IMG/VR virus record: IMGVR_UViG_3300046517_000744
Location: 1 to 35,559 of that record
DNA: 35,559 nt
Strand: one strand, 5' to 3'
Source: a virus
Part shown: positions 4,817-26,340 of the stretch, one piece after another
Numbering within the stretch: the stretch's first letter is position 1
Layout: every line of letters begins with the position of its first letter
Notes under the pieces: generated by a model
Database searches by the model: none
Seen by the model: the letters and a program-made list of their open reading frames with translations, nothing else
Told to the model about the DNA's origin: nothing
Program-made: the position numbers and the translations under genes

Positions 4817-5362
4817 ATGAGTGAGCAAAGTTATGAGTTTGACCCATGCAGTATTGATGGGAGCGACAAGGAAGAAGTAACTTTAGATAGCTGGAAGCCA
4901 AAAGCTAAGATTGAAGGCATGCCTCTTTCTCAATGGCGTCAAGACCAAATAGGCAGTAATTTTAACCAGCAACCAGGGATAGATGAGCTTAATAAAATTC
5001 ATGCGTTTATCAAACAACGAAAATCTGACAGTGATATCATGAAGGCTTTTGGTATTACTGCTGAAACCTTGATAGCCATTAAGAAAGACAAGTATGACCC
5101 CGTAGAAGGTATTTCCCTAGACAACCAAAGCAAAATCTATAAAGAGTTTAAGCGCTTGGAAGAGAGGATAGACAGTTTACTACGTGGCATTAATCATATT
5201 GCTGAATGCATGTTTACAACCAAGGCCGACAAAGCGGCTTATAAGAAGTCATTAAAAAAACCTAAGAAGGAAAAAGTATCAAAAGTCAAAAAAAATGAGA
5301 AAATTGGTGAGGACTTCATAGGCCTTGATGAGGATTTAGACAAAAAAGACGAAGAAGAGTAA
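4817..5362 (+). CDS. Hypothetical protein with charged C-terminal tail
   Basis: The protein has 181 residues and starts on the base after the nuclease stop. The N-terminal 50 residues are acidic and look disordered. Residues 55-100 (IDELNKIHAFIKQRKSDSDI then FGITAETLIAIKKDKYDP) could form a small helix-turn-helix-like unit. Residues 110-140 are helical, and the last 45 residues are very Lys-rich, then acidic. Family not recognised. A helix-turn-helix followed by a charged tail would suit a DNA-binding accessory factor, but this is weak inference. It is the last plus-strand gene before the structured gap and terminator. Confidence 0.75.
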   Translation: MSEQSYEFDPCSIDGSDKEEVTLDSWKPKAKIEGMPLSQWRQDQIGSNFNQQPGIDELNKIHAFIKQRKSDSDIMKAFGITAETLIAIKKDKYDPVEGISLDNQSKIYKEFKRLEERIDSLLRGINHIAECMFTTKADKAAYKKSLKKPKKEKVSKVKKNEKIGEDFIGLDEDLDKKDEEE

Positions 5363-6260: not shown

Positions 6261-7967
6261 TTAATTGAATATTTTCCTTTTAATCCTATACCCGTTATCA
6301 TCTTGATGAAGCATTATGTGTGAAGGGGTGTTTACACTTTGAAGCATTTCGTGCATTTTCTCGCGTTTGTCCATGTAGAGATACCAATCGCTGGGCTTCT
6401 CGCAGTGTTTTTTAATGAACTGGCCATAGAAGACATTCTTTGCCTTATCGCTTATGGGCGTATAGTTCTCATAAAATGCTGCAACTCGCCCTTTGTCATC
6501 CCGACAGCGATACATGCAATTTACTCGAAATCCTGTTTTAGAATCGGATATTGCGTATTTTGCGTCAATGACTTCAAGTTCTCGTAAGCTTTGCGTAGAA
6601 CTGGGTAATTGGAGTTTCTCATTCGGATCAATAATTTCGGTCTGGCAAATTCTACAATGTCGAGAGGCAATGTCATTCTGTGCTTTGCATCCATTGTTTG
6701 GGCACTCCTTAAATTCAAAATAATAGCTACAGCGCATCCCATTAGTTATTCCTACGCAACGTCGCGCGGTTTCAGTATTCATCTCCTGGCATTCAGGGCA
6801 TTCAATAACAAGCGGCTTATCCTCATCAAGAGCCTGTTTAACAGCCTTAACCAGTATCGGATTATCCCAATCCTTATGGCGTTCAATGTTACCGGCAAAG
6901 TCTAATACAAGGGCTTCGTTCTTGTTGGTACTAGGAGACAGACGCAAAACCCTCCCCATAGTTTGTACGAGCAATACCAGACTTTCGGTCGGTCTGAGAT
7001 AAGCCAAGGTATCGTAGGCAGGTACATCAACACCAACAGAAATAATAGCAATGTTAACGAGATACTTAATTTTACCTTCGCGAGCTTCATTTAAAATCCT
7101 TGTACGTTCCTCTTGAGGTGTTTCGCCGAGAATCAAGGCACTTTGTGTCTCTGGTAGGTGACTCAAAATCTCTTCTGCGTGCTTTTTGGTGGTCGCAAAT
7201 AAAAAGACACCGAACCTGTTTTGGCTTTCCATGATATGAATGATTTGTTTACAGATAAGCTCTGTCAAGCGAGCATTTTGACTAACGACAAGCTCAAGCT
7301 CTTTGGCATCAAACTTGCCGTTACTTTTGATTTTCACCTTTGAGAAATCGATAACCAATTTCTGGTCAATTTCAAAGTTAGGTTCAATCAGGTATTTGTC
7401 ATTGATTAGTTTGTCGGTTGTAATGTTTCCAACTTGTCGTTTGAAGAGACAATTAGTTCCAACGATTTCTGTTCCTTTGTATCGGAAGTTTGTTCCGGTT
7501 GCCCCGAGCAAACGCATTTGTGAGTACTCTTGCTTGTAGTGGCGAAGTATCCGCATAAACCCAGTGCGATGATCACTAAAATTAATCGCATGAGCCTCAT
7601 CGACGACGATGATATTGAACTTGATTTGGGCGATTCGTTCATTTTTATTAATTCCGTTTAAAATTGATTGAGGAGTGCCAAATACTATTGGCTCACTGAC
7701 ATCTTTTTCATTTAAAGCAGCGCAGTATATTGATGCGTTGCCGCCCTGCTCTTTGAATGTAGCGCAGTTGTTTCTAACAAGTTCCGCGTTGTTTACCAGG
7801 CATAATGCCCGCTTCCCTAGTTTCTCCATTCGAATTAATATAGAGGCAAGCATCAGACTTTTACCAGCTCCTACGCTTGCCATTAGAAGAACGGGATTAT
7901 CATCATCTTTAAGAGCGTCCCAACACTCCATTACTGCCTGTTTCTGGTACGGTCTCAATTCTTTCAT
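6261..7967 (-). CDS. SF2 DEAD/DEAH-type helicase with C-terminal zinc ribbons
   Basis: This 568-residue ATP-dependent helicase shows ELRPYQKQ (Q-motif region) at 3-10, GAGKS (Walker A) at 33-37, DEAH at 123-126, GATGT (motif III) at 155-159 and QTMGRVLR (motif VI) at 335-342. After the two RecA-like lobes come Cys pairs at 390/393, 422/427 and 438/441, plus Cys404 and Cys413, suggesting zinc ribbons, then a ~100-residue C-terminal domain. The second ATG (7967) is chosen over 7982 because AGGA lies 8 bases before it and the first has no ribosome-binding site. Sharing an operon with RecE/RecT-type genes points to recombination or replication-fork remodelling. It overlaps the upstream gene by 59 bases. 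Confidence 0.9.
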   Translation of the reverse strand: MKELRPYQKQAVMECWDALKDDDNPVLLMASVGAGKSLMLASILIRMEKLGKRALCLVNNAELVRNNCATFKEQGGNASIYCAALNEKDVSEPIVFGTPQSILNGINKNERIAQIKFNIIVVDEAHAINFSDHRTGFMRILRHYKQEYSQMRLLGATGTNFRYKGTEIVGTNCLFKRQVGNITTDKLINDKYLIEPNFEIDQKLVIDFSKVKIKSNGKFDAKELELVVSQNARLTELICKQIIHIMESQNRFGVFLFATTKKHAEEILSHLPETQSALILGETPQEERTRILNEAREGKIKYLVNIAIISVGVDVPAYDTLAYLRPTESLVLLVQTMGRVLRLSPSTNKNEALVLDFAGNIERHKDWDNPILVKAVKQALDEDKPLVIECPECQEMNTETARRCVGITNGMRCSYYFEFKECPNNGCKAQNDIASRHCRICQTEIIDPNEKLQLPSSTQSLRELEVIDAKYAISDSKTGFRVNCMYRCRDDKGRVAAFYENYTPISDKAKNVFYGQFIKKHCEKPSDWYLYMDKREKMHEMLQSVNTPSHIMLHQDDNGYRIKRKIFN

Positions 7968-8136
7968 CTGACATCCTGTCATTATTAAATAAATTCAGGT
8001 TTTTTTCATAAAATATACGAAAGCAATCTTTGCATAAACCTGTATAGCCTTGGTCATTATCAGGAGGGTAGCATTCTGAACTATCTGCTTGACACATGTC
8101 GCATCTTGGTGGCATTGAGTATTCTATATTCATCAA
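7909..8136 (-). CDS. Small zinc-finger-like protein
   Basis: The protein has 75 residues with two Cys-x2-Cys pairs (CDMC and CKDC) about 25 residues apart, the spacing of a zinc ribbon; residues 45-75 are polar. It starts within the stop of the preceding gene (ATGA) and its last 59 bases overlap the helicase start in another frame. The Cys pattern and stop-start coupling argue for a real gene. Function unknown; a nucleic-acid-binding or adaptor role fits the operon. Confidence 0.72.
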   Translation of the reverse strand: MMNIEYSMPPRCDMCQADSSECYPPDNDQGYTGLCKDCFRIFYEKNLNLFNNDRMSDERIETVPETGSNGVLGRS

Positions 8137-12727: not shown

Positions 12728-13194
12728 ATGAAGAACTGTATAAAATGTATAAATCTGGTCGTGATATGGTTGAACAGTCTAAAAACATAGAGCTTGCGGA
12801 GCCATTTCTTGAGTTTATCGAAGCTATAGAGTCCTCTTCAAAGTCATTGGATATATCAAACCCTTCGTATTATGAGCGCTGGGTTAAAGAAAACCTCCCT
12901 AGTGAGCCTCTCTATTTTCGTTTTCACCGAGGAATACTAGAGGACTCCATGAAAACTACGCGAGAAATATATTCATTTGAAGCTTTAATTACGATGATTA
13001 CATGCGAGTGGGAGTTTGAGCCGGTCTCCATAAAAATAACTCCTTATGTTTATGATGGCCGCATAGGCTGGGACACGCATATTGTAAGCGCCAAATTTAA
13101 AGGATTATTGGATCAAGGCTTTATGCCTGTAGGATTTTTAAATAGAAACCCTGAGTGGAATATCCAACAAGGAGAAGTATGTGAAGTTAAGTAA
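12724..13194 (+). CDS. Hypothetical early protein
   Basis: The protein has 156 residues, acidic in the N-terminal 50 and mixed alpha/beta later (PVSIKITPYVYDGRIGWDTH ...). It has no signal peptide, membrane span or recognised motif. It overlaps the gene before by ATGA and the SPFH gene after by 14 bases, so it is part of one translationally linked set. Confidence 0.72.
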   Translation: MNEELYKMYKSGRDMVEQSKNIELAEPFLEFIEAIESSSKSLDISNPSYYERWVKENLPSEPLYFRFHRGILEDSMKTTREIYSFEALITMITCEWEFEPVSIKITPYVYDGRIGWDTHIVSAKFKGLLDQGFMPVGFLNRNPEWNIQQGEVCEVK

Positions 13195-14044
13195 AATAGC
13201 AGCTATAGCAACGATAGCCGTAGCATTGAGCGCATGCCACAAGGTTCCAGCTGGTTATCGAGGAGTTATCGTAAATCTGTATGGATCTGATAAAGGCGTA
13301 TCTGAAGAAACTGTTGGAGTAGGGCGTTATTATTTAGGCTGGAACAAAGAGCTTTATTTATTTCCAACTTTCTTACAAAACTATTCTTGGAATAAAGACG
13401 CTGCCATCACAATGCAAACATCAGAAGGTTTAACCATAACCTCAAATGTAGGCATAACCTATCAAATAGCACCTGATAATGTCGCAAAGGTTTTCACCCG
13501 TTATAGACTTGGAATTGATGAAATAACCAATACCTTTTTACATAATATGGTGCGTGATGCCATGAATGAAATTGCTTCAACGATGACCGTAGACCAGATT
13601 TACAGTACACGCAAAGAAGAATTTATTACCCGTGTAAATACGATGGTAAGAGAAGGGGCTGCAAAAAACGGCATAGAGGTCGATAAAATATATCTTATTG
13701 GCTCTTTCGATTTGCCGTCTAGTGTAATGGAATCTATTAATTCAAAAATTCAAGCGTCTCAAAATGCTGTGAAAGTTGAAAATGAGATTGCTACAAGTCG
13801 CGCCGAGGCTCAGAAAACAATCGTGGAAGCGAAAGCCGCAGCTCAGCGACGAGTCATTGAGGCAGAAGCTAATGCCAAACAAATTACTTTGAATGCTGAG
13901 TCTCAGGCCAAAGCAAATAAAATTCTAGCTGATAGCTTAACGAAAGAATTTGTACAGTATCAAGCGATTCTCAAATGGAACGGAGAATTACCCCGCACAA
14001 ACGCCTCAAATGTAATTCCATTTATTAACATGGAAGGTAAATAA
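13181..14044 (+). CDS. SPFH/prohibitin-domain lipoprotein
   Basis: The protein has 287 residues with a GTG start behind AAGGAG. Residues 1-19 are a lipoprotein signal (MKLSKIAAIATIAVALSAC) with Cys19 for lipidation; His at +2 is not an inner-membrane retention Asp, so outer-membrane sorting is possible. Residues ~22-190 are an SPFH domain (GYRGVIVNLYGSDKG, TSEGLTITSNVGITYQI, VRDAMNEIASTMTVDQIYST). Residues ~190-260 form the usual Ala/Glu coiled coil (RAEAQKTIVEAKAAAQRRVI). SPFH proteins make large membrane-associated rings; bacterial HflK/HflC of this class control the FtsH protease and affect lambda development. A phage copy could protect the envelope, block a second phage or modulate FtsH. 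All three are inference. Confidence 0.9.
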   Translation: MKLSKIAAIATIAVALSACHKVPAGYRGVIVNLYGSDKGVSEETVGVGRYYLGWNKELYLFPTFLQNYSWNKDAAITMQTSEGLTITSNVGITYQIAPDNVAKVFTRYRLGIDEITNTFLHNMVRDAMNEIASTMTVDQIYSTRKEEFITRVNTMVREGAAKNGIEVDKIYLIGSFDLPSSVMESINSKIQASQNAVKVENEIATSRAEAQKTIVEAKAAAQRRVIEAEANAKQITLNAESQAKANKILADSLTKEFVQYQAILKWNGELPRTNASNVIPFINMEGK

Positions 14045-15811: not shown

Positions 15812-16807
15812 ATGGCTATGCCAAAAAAGAACCTAAATCAACAGTTATTAGCTCAATTTTCGGGCAACGATTCTTTTCTAACCATTCCTAAAATTTACTA
15901 CCGCCTCACTAAAAACCTAAATAAATCTTTATTGCTGAGTCAGGTTATTTTTTATTCAGATAAATCAACTTACTGCAAAGACGGTTGGTTTTATAAAACC
16001 TACGAAGATTGGCAGAAAGAAGTCTTTTTAAGCGTGCGAGGCATGCGTGATTTATTCAAAGAGCTTGTGAGTGAAGAGTTGATTGAAATGCGTGTTGCTA
16101 AGATTCAAGGCACCCGCACTCCTCTTTTTAGACCCCGACTAGATAATGTAGCAAAAGCCATTGAAGCTCTTTTATTGTCCGAAATAGAACCAGTAGTAAA
16201 ACCCATTATTGAGCAAGAATTATCCCAAACGGCAGAAAGTGCCTTTTCGGTCAAAAATGTACCTAAACGGCAGAAAGTGCCGAATAGCCAAACGGCAGAA
16301 AGTGCCGTTTCTAATATACATATACAGATCACTACTTCAGATAAAAAAACCACTACGTCAAAAAAAAGTGGTGGTGGTTCTTTTTCAAAAACTAAAAAAC
16401 AAATGCTTGAACAAAAACTTCCTGACGATGAACGACCAGATGAGAAATTCTTAGAACACTGCACACATCACATCAAACACAATAGCCCTAACCCCGCAGA
16501 CAGCGACTACAAAAAAACCATGATGTTAATTGCGCTATTAAAAATCTTGGCTGGAAGAGGAGAGCATTTCAAATCCAAGGGGTTTGTGGACTTGCAAGAA
16601 GAAAAACGCCAAAAGGAAGAGCAAGCAGCCAGACACAAAGCGCAGTTAGCAGCTCAAGACAAACAGCACGAGGAGTATCTTGCCAGGATGCAAAAAGTCT
16701 CCGAGAACAAAAAATCAGCGATGACCAACGACCAACGTCGAGTAGGGATGTCTAAATGCTCATCCATTCTTGAAAAGCTCGTTGGTGTTCAACATGCCAA
16801 CGCGTGA
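15812..16807 (+). CDS. Replication initiator protein, lambda O / DnaD-like organisation
   Basis: The protein has 331 residues. Residues 20-115 form the winged-helix domain common to phage initiators: FLTIPKIYYRLTKNLNKSLL, LSQVIFYSDKST, GWFYKTYEDWQKEVFLSVRG, ELVSEELIEMR. Residues 130-190 are a low-complexity linker whose DNA contains three 17-bp iterons. The C-terminal part is helical and highly charged (EEKRQKEEQAARHKAQLAAQ), a likely contact for a helicase or loader. An origin inside the initiator gene, between its DNA-binding and interaction domains, is exactly the lambda O arrangement. It probably binds those iterons and recruits the host DnaB. No phage helicase loader was identified nearby. 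Confidence 0.85.
   Translation: MAMPKKNLNQQLLAQFSGNDSFLTIPKIYYRLTKNLNKSLLLSQVIFYSDKSTYCKDGWFYKTYEDWQKEVFLSVRGMRDLFKELVSEELIEMRVAKIQGTRTPLFRPRLDNVAKAIEALLLSEIEPVVKPIIEQELSQTAESAFSVKNVPKRQKVPNSQTAESAVSNIHIQITTSDKKTTTSKKSGGGSFSKTKKQMLEQKLPDDERPDEKFLEHCTHHIKHNSPNPADSDYKKTMMLIALLKILAGRGEHFKSKGFVDLQEEKRQKEEQAARHKAQLAAQDKQHEEYLARMQKVSENKKSAMTNDQRRVGMSKCSSILEKLVGVQHANA
16227..16400. other. Predicted replication origin: three iterons plus AT-rich flank
   Basis: AAACGGCAGAAAGTGCC occurs without mismatch at 16227-16243, 16265-16281 and 16290-16306. Each contains the palindrome GGCA-N5-TGCC; the third extends to AAACGGCA-N5-TGCCGTTT. The repeats fall in different reading frames of the host gene, so they are kept as DNA, not as protein. 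Directly after them comes an A/T-rich stretch (16311-16400) with long A runs and an ACCAC/GTGGT hairpin, suitable for strand opening. Confidence 0.8.
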
Positions 16808-18311: not shown

Positions 18312-18800
18312 TTACGCAGCCCTCAGTTTGTTACGCTCTTTCTCGCTCACTTTCTCACTGCCATGTGTTGCACGTATCTCATCCATTGAGAACTTGCCAC
18401 GCCCTTTAGATTTATAATCTGATGGACGGAAATACCAAAGTTTCTTCTTAGGCGCCCACATAAAACCCGCTGCTTTGATGATATCCTTGTGCGGTCGAGT
18501 ATCTCCGTGCAACCAAATCCAAGCGCCGCAAATTTCAATATCTAATCCAAGCCCCATAATTGCGTTTAAGGCGTTGTTTATGTCTTCCCCATAGGTTTGC
18601 GTGCCTTCCGTGTCTTTCGCTTCACCACGGGCTTCTTTTAAAGCCTCGTAGGCTTGATTAACTAGTTTCATCATCTCTAAACCCGCTGGATTTCTATCGG
18701 GGTGATAAATCGAGCATGCTTTACGATAAGCAGCCTTCACAATCTCAGGGTTATATTCACCGTTGATGTCTAGAATTTTTAACGCGTCGTTTATGTGCAT
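18312..18800 (-). CDS. J-domain (DnaJ-like) protein with C-terminal DNA/virion-associated domain of unknown role
   Basis: The protein has 162 residues. Residues 1-57 are a J domain with His33-Pro34-Asp35 in AYRKACSIYHPDRNPAG, the motif that stimulates Hsp70 ATPase, so it should be able to recruit host DnaK. Residues 85-160 form a second unit, GAWIWLHGDTRPHKDIIKAA then GFMWAPKKKLWYFRPSDYKS, a Trp-rich pattern also seen in other phage J proteins. There is no Gly/Phe region or zinc centre, so it is not a full DnaJ. AGGATAG precedes the ATG. It is the first gene behind the operator-bearing promoter at 18830-18869, so it is likely an early gene. DnaJ matters for lambda replication initiation; this protein may steer that step. 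Confidence 0.88.
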   Translation of the reverse strand: MHINDALKILDINGEYNPEIVKAAYRKACSIYHPDRNPAGLEMMKLVNQAYEALKEARGEAKDTEGTQTYGEDINNALNAIMGLGLDIEICGAWIWLHGDTRPHKDIIKAAGFMWAPKKKLWYFRPSDYKSKGRGKFSMDEIRATHGSEKVSEKERNKLRAA

Positions 18801-23476: not shown

Positions 23477-24394
23477 ATGGCTACAGAAACAAGCAGCATT
23501 GATGATTTATTGATGGGTGGCGCGTCGCCTAGTATTCCGCCAACATCGGAAAGTAAAGAGGATTATTCAGTAGCAGAGGATGCGCCGGAAAATGACTTTG
23601 ATATACCCGAGCAAGAGCATAATGATGATTTCTATTCAACGCCTGAGGAACGAGAAAATAAAAACTCAGAGCCGGACGAGCCAGAAGAGATAGAAGCAAG
23701 GGAGTCAGAAACCGATGATTACGGCAATACAAAGGATGCACCTAAAACTTATACTGAGGAAGAGCTTAACGAGCGCATCAATAAAGCAGTTCGTGAGCGC
23801 TTGTCTCGCGGTAATAATCAGAATCAACAGCCTACGCAACAACAAGTGGCTCAACAGGCGCAGGAATTTGAATACAACCCCGATTCGGCCGAATCATGGG
23901 AGGCGCAACTCGAAAAGTTCGTCGAAAAAACAGTCTCAAAAATAGGCCAAAAGCAGGCACAGCAAGAGCAGCGCGTAAGGGATGAACAAGTCCAGGCCGA
24001 ATTTGAGGATAAATTTAATCGTGGAATGAGTCGTTTTAATGACTTTAGAGAGGTTGTTGCCTCCCAACCCGTTACAGACCCGATGACCTATGCACTGCGC
24101 GGCTTATCAGACCCAGCGGCCTTTATTTATGCGGCCAGCAAGCGCCATCCGCAAGAATTGGCTCGTATTTCACAAATAGCAGACCCAGCAGCGCAAATTA
24201 TGGAAATGGGACGGCTTGAGGAACGCATGAGGAAGGCACCAGTAGGCACAAAAGCCCCTAAACCCATTAGCAAAACACGCGATGAGGGTGGATTGCCCGC
24301 TCAGGCTAAGAAAAAAGAGCAAACGATTGAGGATTTAATTGCCCATTCTGATGCAAAACGCCGTGCCCAATTACAACAAAAACGAGGTAGATAA
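23477..24394 (+). CDS. Scaffolding protein, P22 gp8-like
   Basis: The protein has 305 residues (P22 gp8 is 303). The N-terminal 100 residues are very acidic and disordered (EDAPENDFDIPEQEHNDDFY). The middle is Gln-rich and helical, and the basic C-terminus (DAKRRAQLQQKRGR) fits the helix-turn-helix coat-binding end of P22 scaffold. It guides coat assembly and leaves before maturation. Its stop overlaps the DnaB-NTD gene (TAATG), so the two are co-translated. Confidence 0.88.
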   Translation: MATETSSIDDLLMGGASPSIPPTSESKEDYSVAEDAPENDFDIPEQEHNDDFYSTPEERENKNSEPDEPEEIEARESETDDYGNTKDAPKTYTEEELNERINKAVRERLSRGNNQNQQPTQQQVAQQAQEFEYNPDSAESWEAQLEKFVEKTVSKIGQKQAQQEQRVRDEQVQAEFEDKFNRGMSRFNDFREVVASQPVTDPMTYALRGLSDPAAFIYAASKRHPQELARISQIADPAAQIMEMGRLEERMRKAPVGTKAPKPISKTRDEGGLPAQAKKKEQTIEDLIAHSDAKRRAQLQQKRGR

Positions 24395-24903
24395 TGAAAC
24401 ACGTTAAACCAGCTTTAGAATCTGAAAAAACTATCTTAGGCGCGATTTTGCTTGATAATGGAGTAGTCCGTGACATAGCCGATAAGTTATGCCCAAAAGA
24501 CTTTGATATTTATTTCCACGAAGAGCTATTTGAGTCAATAATTAGGCTACATAAAAAGCATGGCGTGGTTGATGTTCCCATGTTGGTTGATGACTTGAAG
24601 CTAAACTCAGAACACGAGGGATATGTGTATGAGCTTGCTAATAGTTGCCCGTCAGTAGCCAATGTCAAATCGCATGCTGATATTGTGCGTGAGAAATCGG
24701 TGCAAAGAACACTCTTAGAGGTTGCTAATGAGCTTAAAGAGCAACGCAATGAGAAAGTAAAGCAAATCGAACACTTGGCTTCGTTTCTTGAAGAGTGTGC
24801 CGCTGAAATTCGCGCTACTAAGATTACCGATATATATTTAATCTCGCTCTTAGTGGAGATAACAAAGGGATTTGCAGCCTCAATTGAGGAAGAAAAACGT
24901 TAA
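24394..24903 (+). CDS. DnaB helicase N-terminal-domain protein without ATPase
   Basis: The protein has 169 residues and matches the DnaB N-terminal domain over residues 7-115: ALESEKTILGAILLDNGVVR, KLCPKDFDIYFHEELFESII, VVDVPMLVDDL, then ELANSCPSVANVKSHADIVR and EKSVQRTLLEVA. The RecA-like ATPase of DnaB is absent, and the last 50 residues are an unrelated helical tail. It sits between scaffold and coat, where replication genes are not expected. DnaB-NTD is the face that binds primase and loader, so a stand-alone copy could cap or compete for host DnaB or DnaG, perhaps switching off replication as packaging starts. This role is inference. Confidence 0.87.
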   Translation: MKHVKPALESEKTILGAILLDNGVVRDIADKLCPKDFDIYFHEELFESIIRLHKKHGVVDVPMLVDDLKLNSEHEGYVYELANSCPSVANVKSHADIVREKSVQRTLLEVANELKEQRNEKVKQIEHLASFLEECAAEIRATKITDIYLISLLVEITKGFAASIEEEKR

Positions 24904-24904
24904 T

Positions 24905-24933
24905 TTGACAGAATGTTGAACGCATTCTAAGAT
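24905..24933 (+). promoter_or_regulatory. Strong promoter for the coat gene, with a palindrome in its spacer
   Basis: TTGACA (24905-24910), 17 bp, TAAGAT (24928-24933). The spacer is filled by AGAATG-N7-CATTCT (24910-24928), a 19-bp palindrome with the same 6-7-6 layout as the early operators but a different sequence. A ~150-base leader follows, with a CTTAAGCA/TGCTTGAG hairpin near 25036-25055 and the octamer GCGTGTAT twice. Confidence 0.7.
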
Positions 24934-25092
24934 GCTTTTAATCGAAGTACTAGCGTGTATTGGGTTTCCGCTCCCAGAGTATTGAAATTTTATTGGCGTG
25001 TATCTGTCTTCCGCCGGGCAAATGGTAGTTAGGCACTTAAGCATGATGCTTGAGTAATTAATAAACATTTGTTCGGTCAGGGAGATAGAACA

Positions 25093-26340
25093 ATGGCTAA
25101 TATTTTTCGCGAAACCCAGTATGTGCTGGACGACGTGTTTGTAAGATTTTGGAACAGTCTTGCATTTGCTCGTACAGCGAACCGTAACCTCGAAGGCGAT
25201 TTCAAAAACCTACGCTTTGCAACTGGCCAAACCATCGACTACCGCTTAGAAGAAAGATACCTAGCGGGTGAAGGTGCTACCGCAACAGCCGAAGCGCGTG
25301 TACAGGTCATCCGACCCCTTTCTATTACTAAGCAATTCCGCACCATGATTGAATACACAGGGTTTAACCTGACATTCGACCGTGCGCGAGATGAGCCTTA
25401 TTTGGAAATGGCGAACGCTCCCCGTGCTAAACGCTTAGCGAACATGGTTGAAAACTTCATTGCTGATTCATTTCAGAATCAAGTCTATCAATCCGTTGGT
25501 ACTCCTGGCGTTCCTGTCGACTTCAATACTATCTTAACTGCTGATGCGCTTATGACGCAGCTTGGCATACCAGAAGATGGTAAACGTTATGCGGCTGTAC
25601 CTCCTCGCGTATCTGCGAACTTAAACAATGACTTGTACAACGTATTCAACAACACCGTTAACACTGGTGCATTGATTGACGGCTTTATCGGTCACTTGTC
25701 TGGCTTTGACTTTTTCAAGACAAACTTCTTGCATCGTCAAATAGCGGGCGCTGGTCAGTTAGGCGGTAGTCCTCCTGCTGGTATGTTGCTAGCAGGAACC
25801 GTGACTAACGGGCCAATCATCAGCGGCAACACCATCTCTGTCACTGGCTTAGGTCAAGCGCCTGGTACTGTGGTCTTCAATGAAGGCGACATTATTCAAG
25901 TAGACCCTGCGGCTGGGGTTTACATGGTTAACCCGCTCACCTATGAACCTATTTACGAAGCGCCTGCGCAGTTTGTTGTCACTGCTCAAGTCATTTCTGC
26001 GAACGGTTCTACCGCTGATATTCCGGTGAATCCAACTATCGTCATTGACGGTGCACGACAAAACATTAGTGCAGCTATTCCAAATACTACGCAAATGTTG
26101 CTCTACGCATCTCATAACGTGTCACTCGCTTATCACACTCAAGCTGTGGTCTTTGCTGCTCCTCCTATCAAAGAACTCAGAGGCGGTGTTGAAGCTGTGA
26201 CTAGATATTCTGACCTGTATAAGTTGGCGATGACGTACTCATTGGGTGCTGACATCAGAAACTACGAACAGTTAGACCGTATCGACGTTATTTGCGGTGT
26301 CGCAATTAACCCTGAGTTTGCTGTGATGATTATGTCTTAA
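25093..26340 (+). CDS. Major coat protein, P22 gp5-like
   Basis: The protein has 415 residues (P22 coat: 430). ATG 25093 follows AGGGAGA; a longer frame from 25069 lacks support. It opens MANIFRETQYVLDDVFVRFW and contains TGQTIDYRLEERYLAGEG, an HK97-type E-loop/P-domain pattern, and an inserted beta-rich middle (residues ~230-320) where P22 coat carries its I-domain. It forms the icosahedral shell. It has its own promoter and is followed by a hairpin, suggesting high, separately controlled expression. Confidence 0.9.
   Translation: MANIFRETQYVLDDVFVRFWNSLAFARTANRNLEGDFKNLRFATGQTIDYRLEERYLAGEGATATAEARVQVIRPLSITKQFRTMIEYTGFNLTFDRARDEPYLEMANAPRAKRLANMVENFIADSFQNQVYQSVGTPGVPVDFNTILTADALMTQLGIPEDGKRYAAVPPRVSANLNNDLYNVFNNTVNTGALIDGFIGHLSGFDFFKTNFLHRQIAGAGQLGGSPPAGMLLAGTVTNGPIISGNTISVTGLGQAPGTVVFNEGDIIQVDPAAGVYMVNPLTYEPIYEAPAQFVVTAQVISANGSTADIPVNPTIVIDGARQNISAAIPNTTQMLLYASHNVSLAYHTQAVVFAAPPIKELRGGVEAVTRYSDLYKLAMTYSLGADIRNYEQLDRIDVICGVAINPEFAVMIMS

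Follow-up and report, generated by a model that had tools for sequence, protein, structure and literature searches.

The N-terminal domain (NTD) of the DnaB helicase is the contact for the C-terminal domain of the primase DnaG and forms the collar of the helicase ring. Phage inhibitors of host replication are already known. ORF104 of phage 77, a 52-aa protein, inhibits the helicase loader DnaI by binding to its AAA+ domain (PMC4887207). A different kind of phage protein, the hairpin nucleotide sponges of the Acb2/Tad1 type (PF24729), occupies the gap between the scaffold and coat genes in relatives of the phage analysed here. In this phage, the same gap holds a gene for a DnaB collar domain without the helicase motor. 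The window, meaning the whole stretch of DNA analysed, is an entire IMG/VR record of 35,559 bases, classed as linear and possibly incomplete; its features and those of related loci are collected in Table 1.

Table 1. Genes and sites of the window, with corresponding features of other phages (positions preceded by an L number are those of the named locus)
Feature	Position	Strand	Evidence
Member of a slot family, here outside the slot	4817..5362	+	53% identity to slot gene L061:5142-5645
Slot members of the same family	L061:5142-5645; L045:5112-5600; L051:5351-5845; L023:5303-5779; L029:5283-5792; L104:11253-11657
Protein with RNA-polymerase alpha-CTD module, 165 aa	5804..6301	-	PF03118, 53 bits
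ResIII/DEAD-type helicase, early operon	6261..7982	-	PF04851, PF00271
alpha-CTD modules in further related phages	L213:1153-1716; L215:1243-1716
O-like initiator / DnaD-like loader	15812..16807	+	phrog_6493, 50.9 bits; phrog_9773, 41.2 bits
Scaffold gene, upstream slot border	23477..24394	+	phrog_8865, 50.4 bits; stop overlaps collar start
Free-standing DnaB N-terminal (collar) domain, 169 aa, without ATPase	24394..24903	+	PF00772, structure, orthologues
Coat leader, downstream slot border	24904..25092	+	promoter-like site, hairpin, conservation in 77 relatives
P22-type coat gene, probable start ATG 25093	25093..26340	+	PF11651, 47.9 bits; phrog_283, 135 bits
Collar-only genes in other phages	L166:3929-4441; L178:3860-4405; L182:3926-4441

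A DnaB collar domain without a motor

The collar gene runs from an ATG to a TAA, and its start codon overlaps the stop codon of the scaffold gene as TAATG. Its product matched PF00772, the DnaB NTD family, with 74.6 bits (E 7.1e-21, cut-off 23), and this was the sole Pfam family matched; the alignment places collar residues 8–100 on profile positions 6–103 of 103, that is, on the whole domain. A profile made from four orthologues (see below) matched the sequences of solved DnaB proteins at an E of about 1e-18 over positions 7–135. The AlphaFold model of the collar protein (P0001), based on a 44-sequence alignment, reached a pLDDT of 85 and a pTM of 0.76. Aligned with VIA-align to E. coli DnaB (7t22_A), it gave a Z of 17.6 and an rmsd of 2.4 over 147 residues, with residues 1–149 superposing on DnaB 24–175. 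Judged by this model, what the gene encodes is the collar domain of DnaB, comprising the head and the helical hairpin and thus extending beyond the head alone. The last helix (147–168), predicted with moderate confidence, is a possible counterpart of the DnaB linker helix, which docks on the neighbouring ATPase; it lies at the corresponding place in the sequence but is not matched in position in most superpositions. The helicase-binding domains of DnaG, which share the superfold, scored only Z 7.7–9.5 against the model, compared with 17–18 for DnaB; by these scores, and with only DnaB models returned by Pfam, the protein is closer to the DnaB NTD than to the DnaG domain.

A search of the window and of 38 related contigs, several of them fragmentary, detected no RecA-like ATPase (PF03796), and no second copy of PF00772 is present in the window. 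The original prediction, made from the sequence alone, had described a DnaB NTD that lacks the ATPase lobe, ends normally and is translationally coupled to the scaffold gene. All of this holds: the profile match and the structural comparison give a clear DnaB NTD fold, the TAA follows at residue 169, the TAATG is confirmed in the sequence and no homologue fused to an ATPase was found elsewhere in the genome. The residues it had aligned (7–115) do belong to the DnaB NTD, but the stretch was too short, as the match of the model spans residues 1–149.

Orthologues, selection and phylogeny

Orthologues of the collar gene were found in the scaffold–coat gap of three other contigs (L012, L013 and L085), with 51–54% identity. 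The portal proteins of these phages are 82–84% identical to that of the window, and the coat, where its sequence is present, is 94% identical. The overlap with the scaffold gene, TAATG in the window, is ATGA in all three and is preceded by a purine-rich AGGGG. Pairwise dN/dS among the four orthologues ranged from 0.12 to 0.36, with dS high or saturated in several pairs; by this measure they are under purifying selection, and the head is under stronger constraint than the tail. The collar gene is also the most diverged gene between terS and coat when the window is compared with contig G001, at 52% identity against 65% for the scaffold, 66% for terS, 84% for the portal, 88% for terL and 95% for the coat.

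E9 and Y77 are invariant across the four orthologues. In the alignment with Geobacillus DnaB, E9, Y77, L108 and L114 of P0001 fall on E15, Y88, I119 and I125, which we take to be positions of mutants that modulate primase. It may be that the conservation of E9 and Y77 is due to the fold alone. Most DnaBs have a loop ahead of the Tyr helix; it is missing from the collar clade, where the alignment shows a gap, and the partners of the clade may therefore differ from those of DnaB.

In the phylogenetic tree, the clade of the window, which includes L122 (a fragment of a related phage, described below) and the very long-branched L118, splits from host and phage DnaBs with support of 100/99. Recent copying of the gene from a host is not supported, since the clade separates from gammaproteobacterial and phage DnaBs alike, with the caveat that long branches are involved. 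Peptide-pattern searches of IMG/VR returned no close relatives of P0001; relatives were found instead by scans with the coat, the portal and the four-sequence alignment. The late region had no megablast match among cultured phages. The sole genome match to the coat lies on a 36-kb contig (L114) from a gammaproteobacterial assembly. As this contig may belong to a phage and have been binned with the assembly, we draw no host assignment from it.

The scaffold–coat gap is a variable cargo slot

Searches with the coat and portal yielded about 110 loci of related phages, in which the gap between scaffold and coat measures between about 140 bp and 1.4 kb. The survey of this slot in P22-like relatives, suggested along with the original prediction, recovered the collar gene in only the three contigs named above; in other relatives, the slot was empty or filled by other genes. 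Its content varies across about 80 relatives whose coats are 82–96% identical, and it is empty in VvAW1 and P26218, two cultured relatives in which the coat follows 23 and 29 bp, respectively, after the scaffold. One relative (L082:5158-5379) carries an Acb2 anti-CBASS sponge in the slot (36.8 bits, above the Pfam cut-off), and three others carry weaker Acb2-like genes that fall below the cut-off (L078:2210-2473, L062:5528-5794 and L041:5538-5789). Other occupants are an N6/N4 DNA methyltransferase (L011), AlpA (L096), DUF6378 (L004) and families without a match. Given that one further family occupies the slot in relatives and lies elsewhere in the window (4817-5362), genes enter and leave the slot. 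This family has the motif L-D-N/S-W-K-P ... GI/LDE, and the members scanned had no Pfam match.

The scaffold–coat gap is thus a variable cargo slot, and the collar gene is not a core part of the virion. The suggestion that the domain had been recruited for a structural role is not borne out by this variability. Its location in a virion cassette had also been called unusual; the scaffold and coat neighbours are confirmed, but phages of this group often carry small additional genes at the position. The collar protein has no match to PF24729, so that its link to Acb2 is positional, and our literature search returned nothing useful on Acb2 between scaffold and coat. Two further genes of the window may be mentioned. 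A J-domain protein (18312-18800, minus strand; PF00226, 38.3 bits) adjoins the packaging genes and is 85–87% identical in three relatives, and a Band_7/SPFH protein (13181-14044, plus strand; 94.8 bits) is 77–81% identical in two.

On its downstream side, the slot is bordered by the leader of the coat gene. The coat probably starts at the ATG given in Table 1, considering the Shine-Dalgarno-like AGGGAGA ahead of it, which leaves a leader of 189 nt after the collar gene. A promoter-like TTGACA-17-TAAGAT (24905-24933) lies directly 3′ of the collar stop, and the blocks GTCTCCCG..GGACAAATG and ATTTGTTCAGGGAGAAC are conserved upstream of the coat in 77 relatives. A long hairpin (fold z -4.7) pairs the ribosome-binding site of the coat, and one inner stem of the leader shows paired changes (GC to AT). 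RNAalifold gave no structure for the first leader alignment and only partial stems for the last 100 nt, and the leader had no match in Rfam. A translational control of the coat by this leader is possible.

Collar-only genes in other phages

Three unrelated phages (L166, L178 and L182) encode collar-only proteins of 170–181 aa, which take their place among phage DnaBs in the tree; collar-only genes have therefore arisen more than once. A split helicase, with collar and ATPase as two genes, was rejected for these phages, as no ATPase was found in the flanks examined. In contig G008 (of L024), a distant gene for a 119-aa head-only DnaB NTD overlaps a terS-like gene (L118:1471-2090). The next gene, overlapping it as ATGA, is an ORF of 87 aa in which we noted by eye a likeness to Tad2/DUF2829; this candidate was set aside for want of Pfam or PHROGs support. 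Two short, function-unassigned PHROGs families also match the head, though weakly: phrog_23150 (217 positions; 7.3e-08) and phrog_20000 (132 positions; 0.0002). They are probably collar-only phage proteins already known. When the collar was compared by tblastn with cultured phages, nearly all of the top-ranked and evenly sampled matches carried a helicase annotation, and three that were examined individually among those annotated as hypothetical proteins proved to be full-length genes of 452–471 aa. The literature searched yielded nothing useful on collar-only phage proteins, and neither a conserved collar-only gene in a scaffold–coat cargo slot nor a fusion of collar and alpha-CTD was found described.

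A collar fused to an alpha-CTD module in an early region

A second setting of the collar was found in L122. Here, a 219-aa protein (L122:3834-4493) joins a DnaB head, which shares 41% identity with P0001 over residues 3–116, to the C-terminal domain of the RNA-polymerase alpha subunit (alpha-CTD; PF03118, 37.3 bits). The fusion gene lies downstream of the early helicase, with a few small ORFs between them. The early helicases of L122 and the window are 68% identical, and in the window the gene directly downstream of the helicase encodes a protein that is 53% identical to the C-terminal part of the fusion over its last 97 residues and has a different N-terminus. Modules of the alpha-CTD type stand behind yet other N-termini in the relatives G009 and G012, which indicates that the module swaps partners. 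The gene that follows the alpha-CTD gene of L213 resembles, by eye, a sigma factor with region 4. The single L122 fusion is suggestive, though no proof, of the collar and the alpha-CTD acting together. In the window, the combination of an O-like or DnaD-like gene with the lack of a DnaB of the phage's own makes the use of host DnaB very likely.

Possible roles of the collar protein

We favour the reading that the protein is a diffusible mimic of the DnaB collar, contacting host DnaG and/or DnaB and thereby disturbing or redirecting the host replisome, and we give this an even chance of being right. The phage would make only the part of DnaB that holds the primase and forms the N-terminal ring, and without the motor this part could not unwind DNA. 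It might compete for the helicase-binding domain of DnaG and/or join or cap host DnaB, so that host forks would lose primase or helicase function, or phage DNA would draw the primase. Judging from the position of the gene, late expression is likely. Host DnaB is probably needed early, and a gene in the late operon would allow interference to begin after phage replication has started. A poisoning or re-targeting of the host replication proteins, as the original prediction had proposed, remains the best explanation, and both the L122 fusion to an alpha-CTD and the missing phage DnaB lend it some support. Also in its favour are the clear DnaB NTD match by profile and fold, the invariance of E9 and Y77, the O-like gene, the constraint on the gene in the same slot of four contigs, and the collar-only genes of G008 and of the three unrelated phages. 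The fusion is weak evidence, since alpha-CTD modules also stand behind other N-termini in G009 and G012, and against the mimic it can be said that a poison of DnaB could also harm the phage.

The main rival is an anti-defence decoy, in which the imitation of DnaB would occupy or quiet a host defence that senses or attacks the replisome. We consider it unlikely. The Acb2 sponge, the weaker Acb2-like genes and the methyltransferase found in the slot would fit such a role, as would the faster divergence of the collar relative to terL, portal and coat in the comparison with G001, which genes in conflict often show. However, the association is one of position in a slot that also holds AlpA, DUF6378 and uncharacterised families, and recognition of the DnaB collar is not known to us from any defence system. 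Somewhat less probable is a helper that would bring host primase or DnaB to the DNA of the phage and be required for its efficient replication. The lack of a phage DnaB points in this direction, as does the L122 fusion, whose alpha-CTD may bind DNA or polymerase and whose gene has early replication and recombination genes beside it, whereas in four contigs the gene sits in the late operon, outside the replication module, and is absent from most relatives.

The position between scaffold and coat and the translational coupling to the scaffold would suit a structural or assembly protein recruited from the helicase domain, but a slot that is empty in VvAW1 and P26218 and so variable among relatives with closely similar coats makes this improbable. 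That the gene is functionless, left over from a phage or host DnaB and now decaying, seems very improbable. A C-terminal domain is easily lost, yet the four orthologues are intact and constrained in sequence, which largely refutes this explanation; in addition, they form their own clade, well separated from host and phage DnaBs, and no trace of an ATPase follows downstream, where the coat leader starts.

If the diffusible mimic does bind host DnaG or DnaB, it would be a natural motor-less DnaB fragment selected for the benefit of the phage, and it would reveal which part of the collar is sufficient for priming control. More broadly, the DnaB collar might be a portable replisome-docking module, used free in a late slot or fused to an alpha-CTD in an early region, that captures host primase or DnaB; we regard this as doubtful, though if true, the host replisome would be captured via a piece of its own helicase. 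In the P22-like group, the scaffold–coat slot alternates between a known anti-defence family and uncharacterised genes, and it is a practical place to search for new host-takeover or anti-defence proteins.

Comparison with known systems

In the fold and sequence of head and hairpin, the collar protein is like the NTD of DnaB helicases (PF00772; PDB 7t22, 2r6a, 1jwe and 2r5u), but it differs from them in the lack of a RecA-like ATPase on its contig, in the missing Tyr-helix loop and in its place in a late cargo slot. With the Acb2/Tad1 sponges it shares the slot and no family relationship, and anti-defence activity is proven for the sponges. A docking module of the kind considered above would differ both from a loader like lambda P and from a protein that inhibits a loader, like ORF104. 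The proposed outcome of the collar resembles that of ORF104, a small phage protein directed against the helicase-loading machinery of the host; the two are unrelated in sequence, and the action of ORF104 has been shown, whereas we infer that of the collar.
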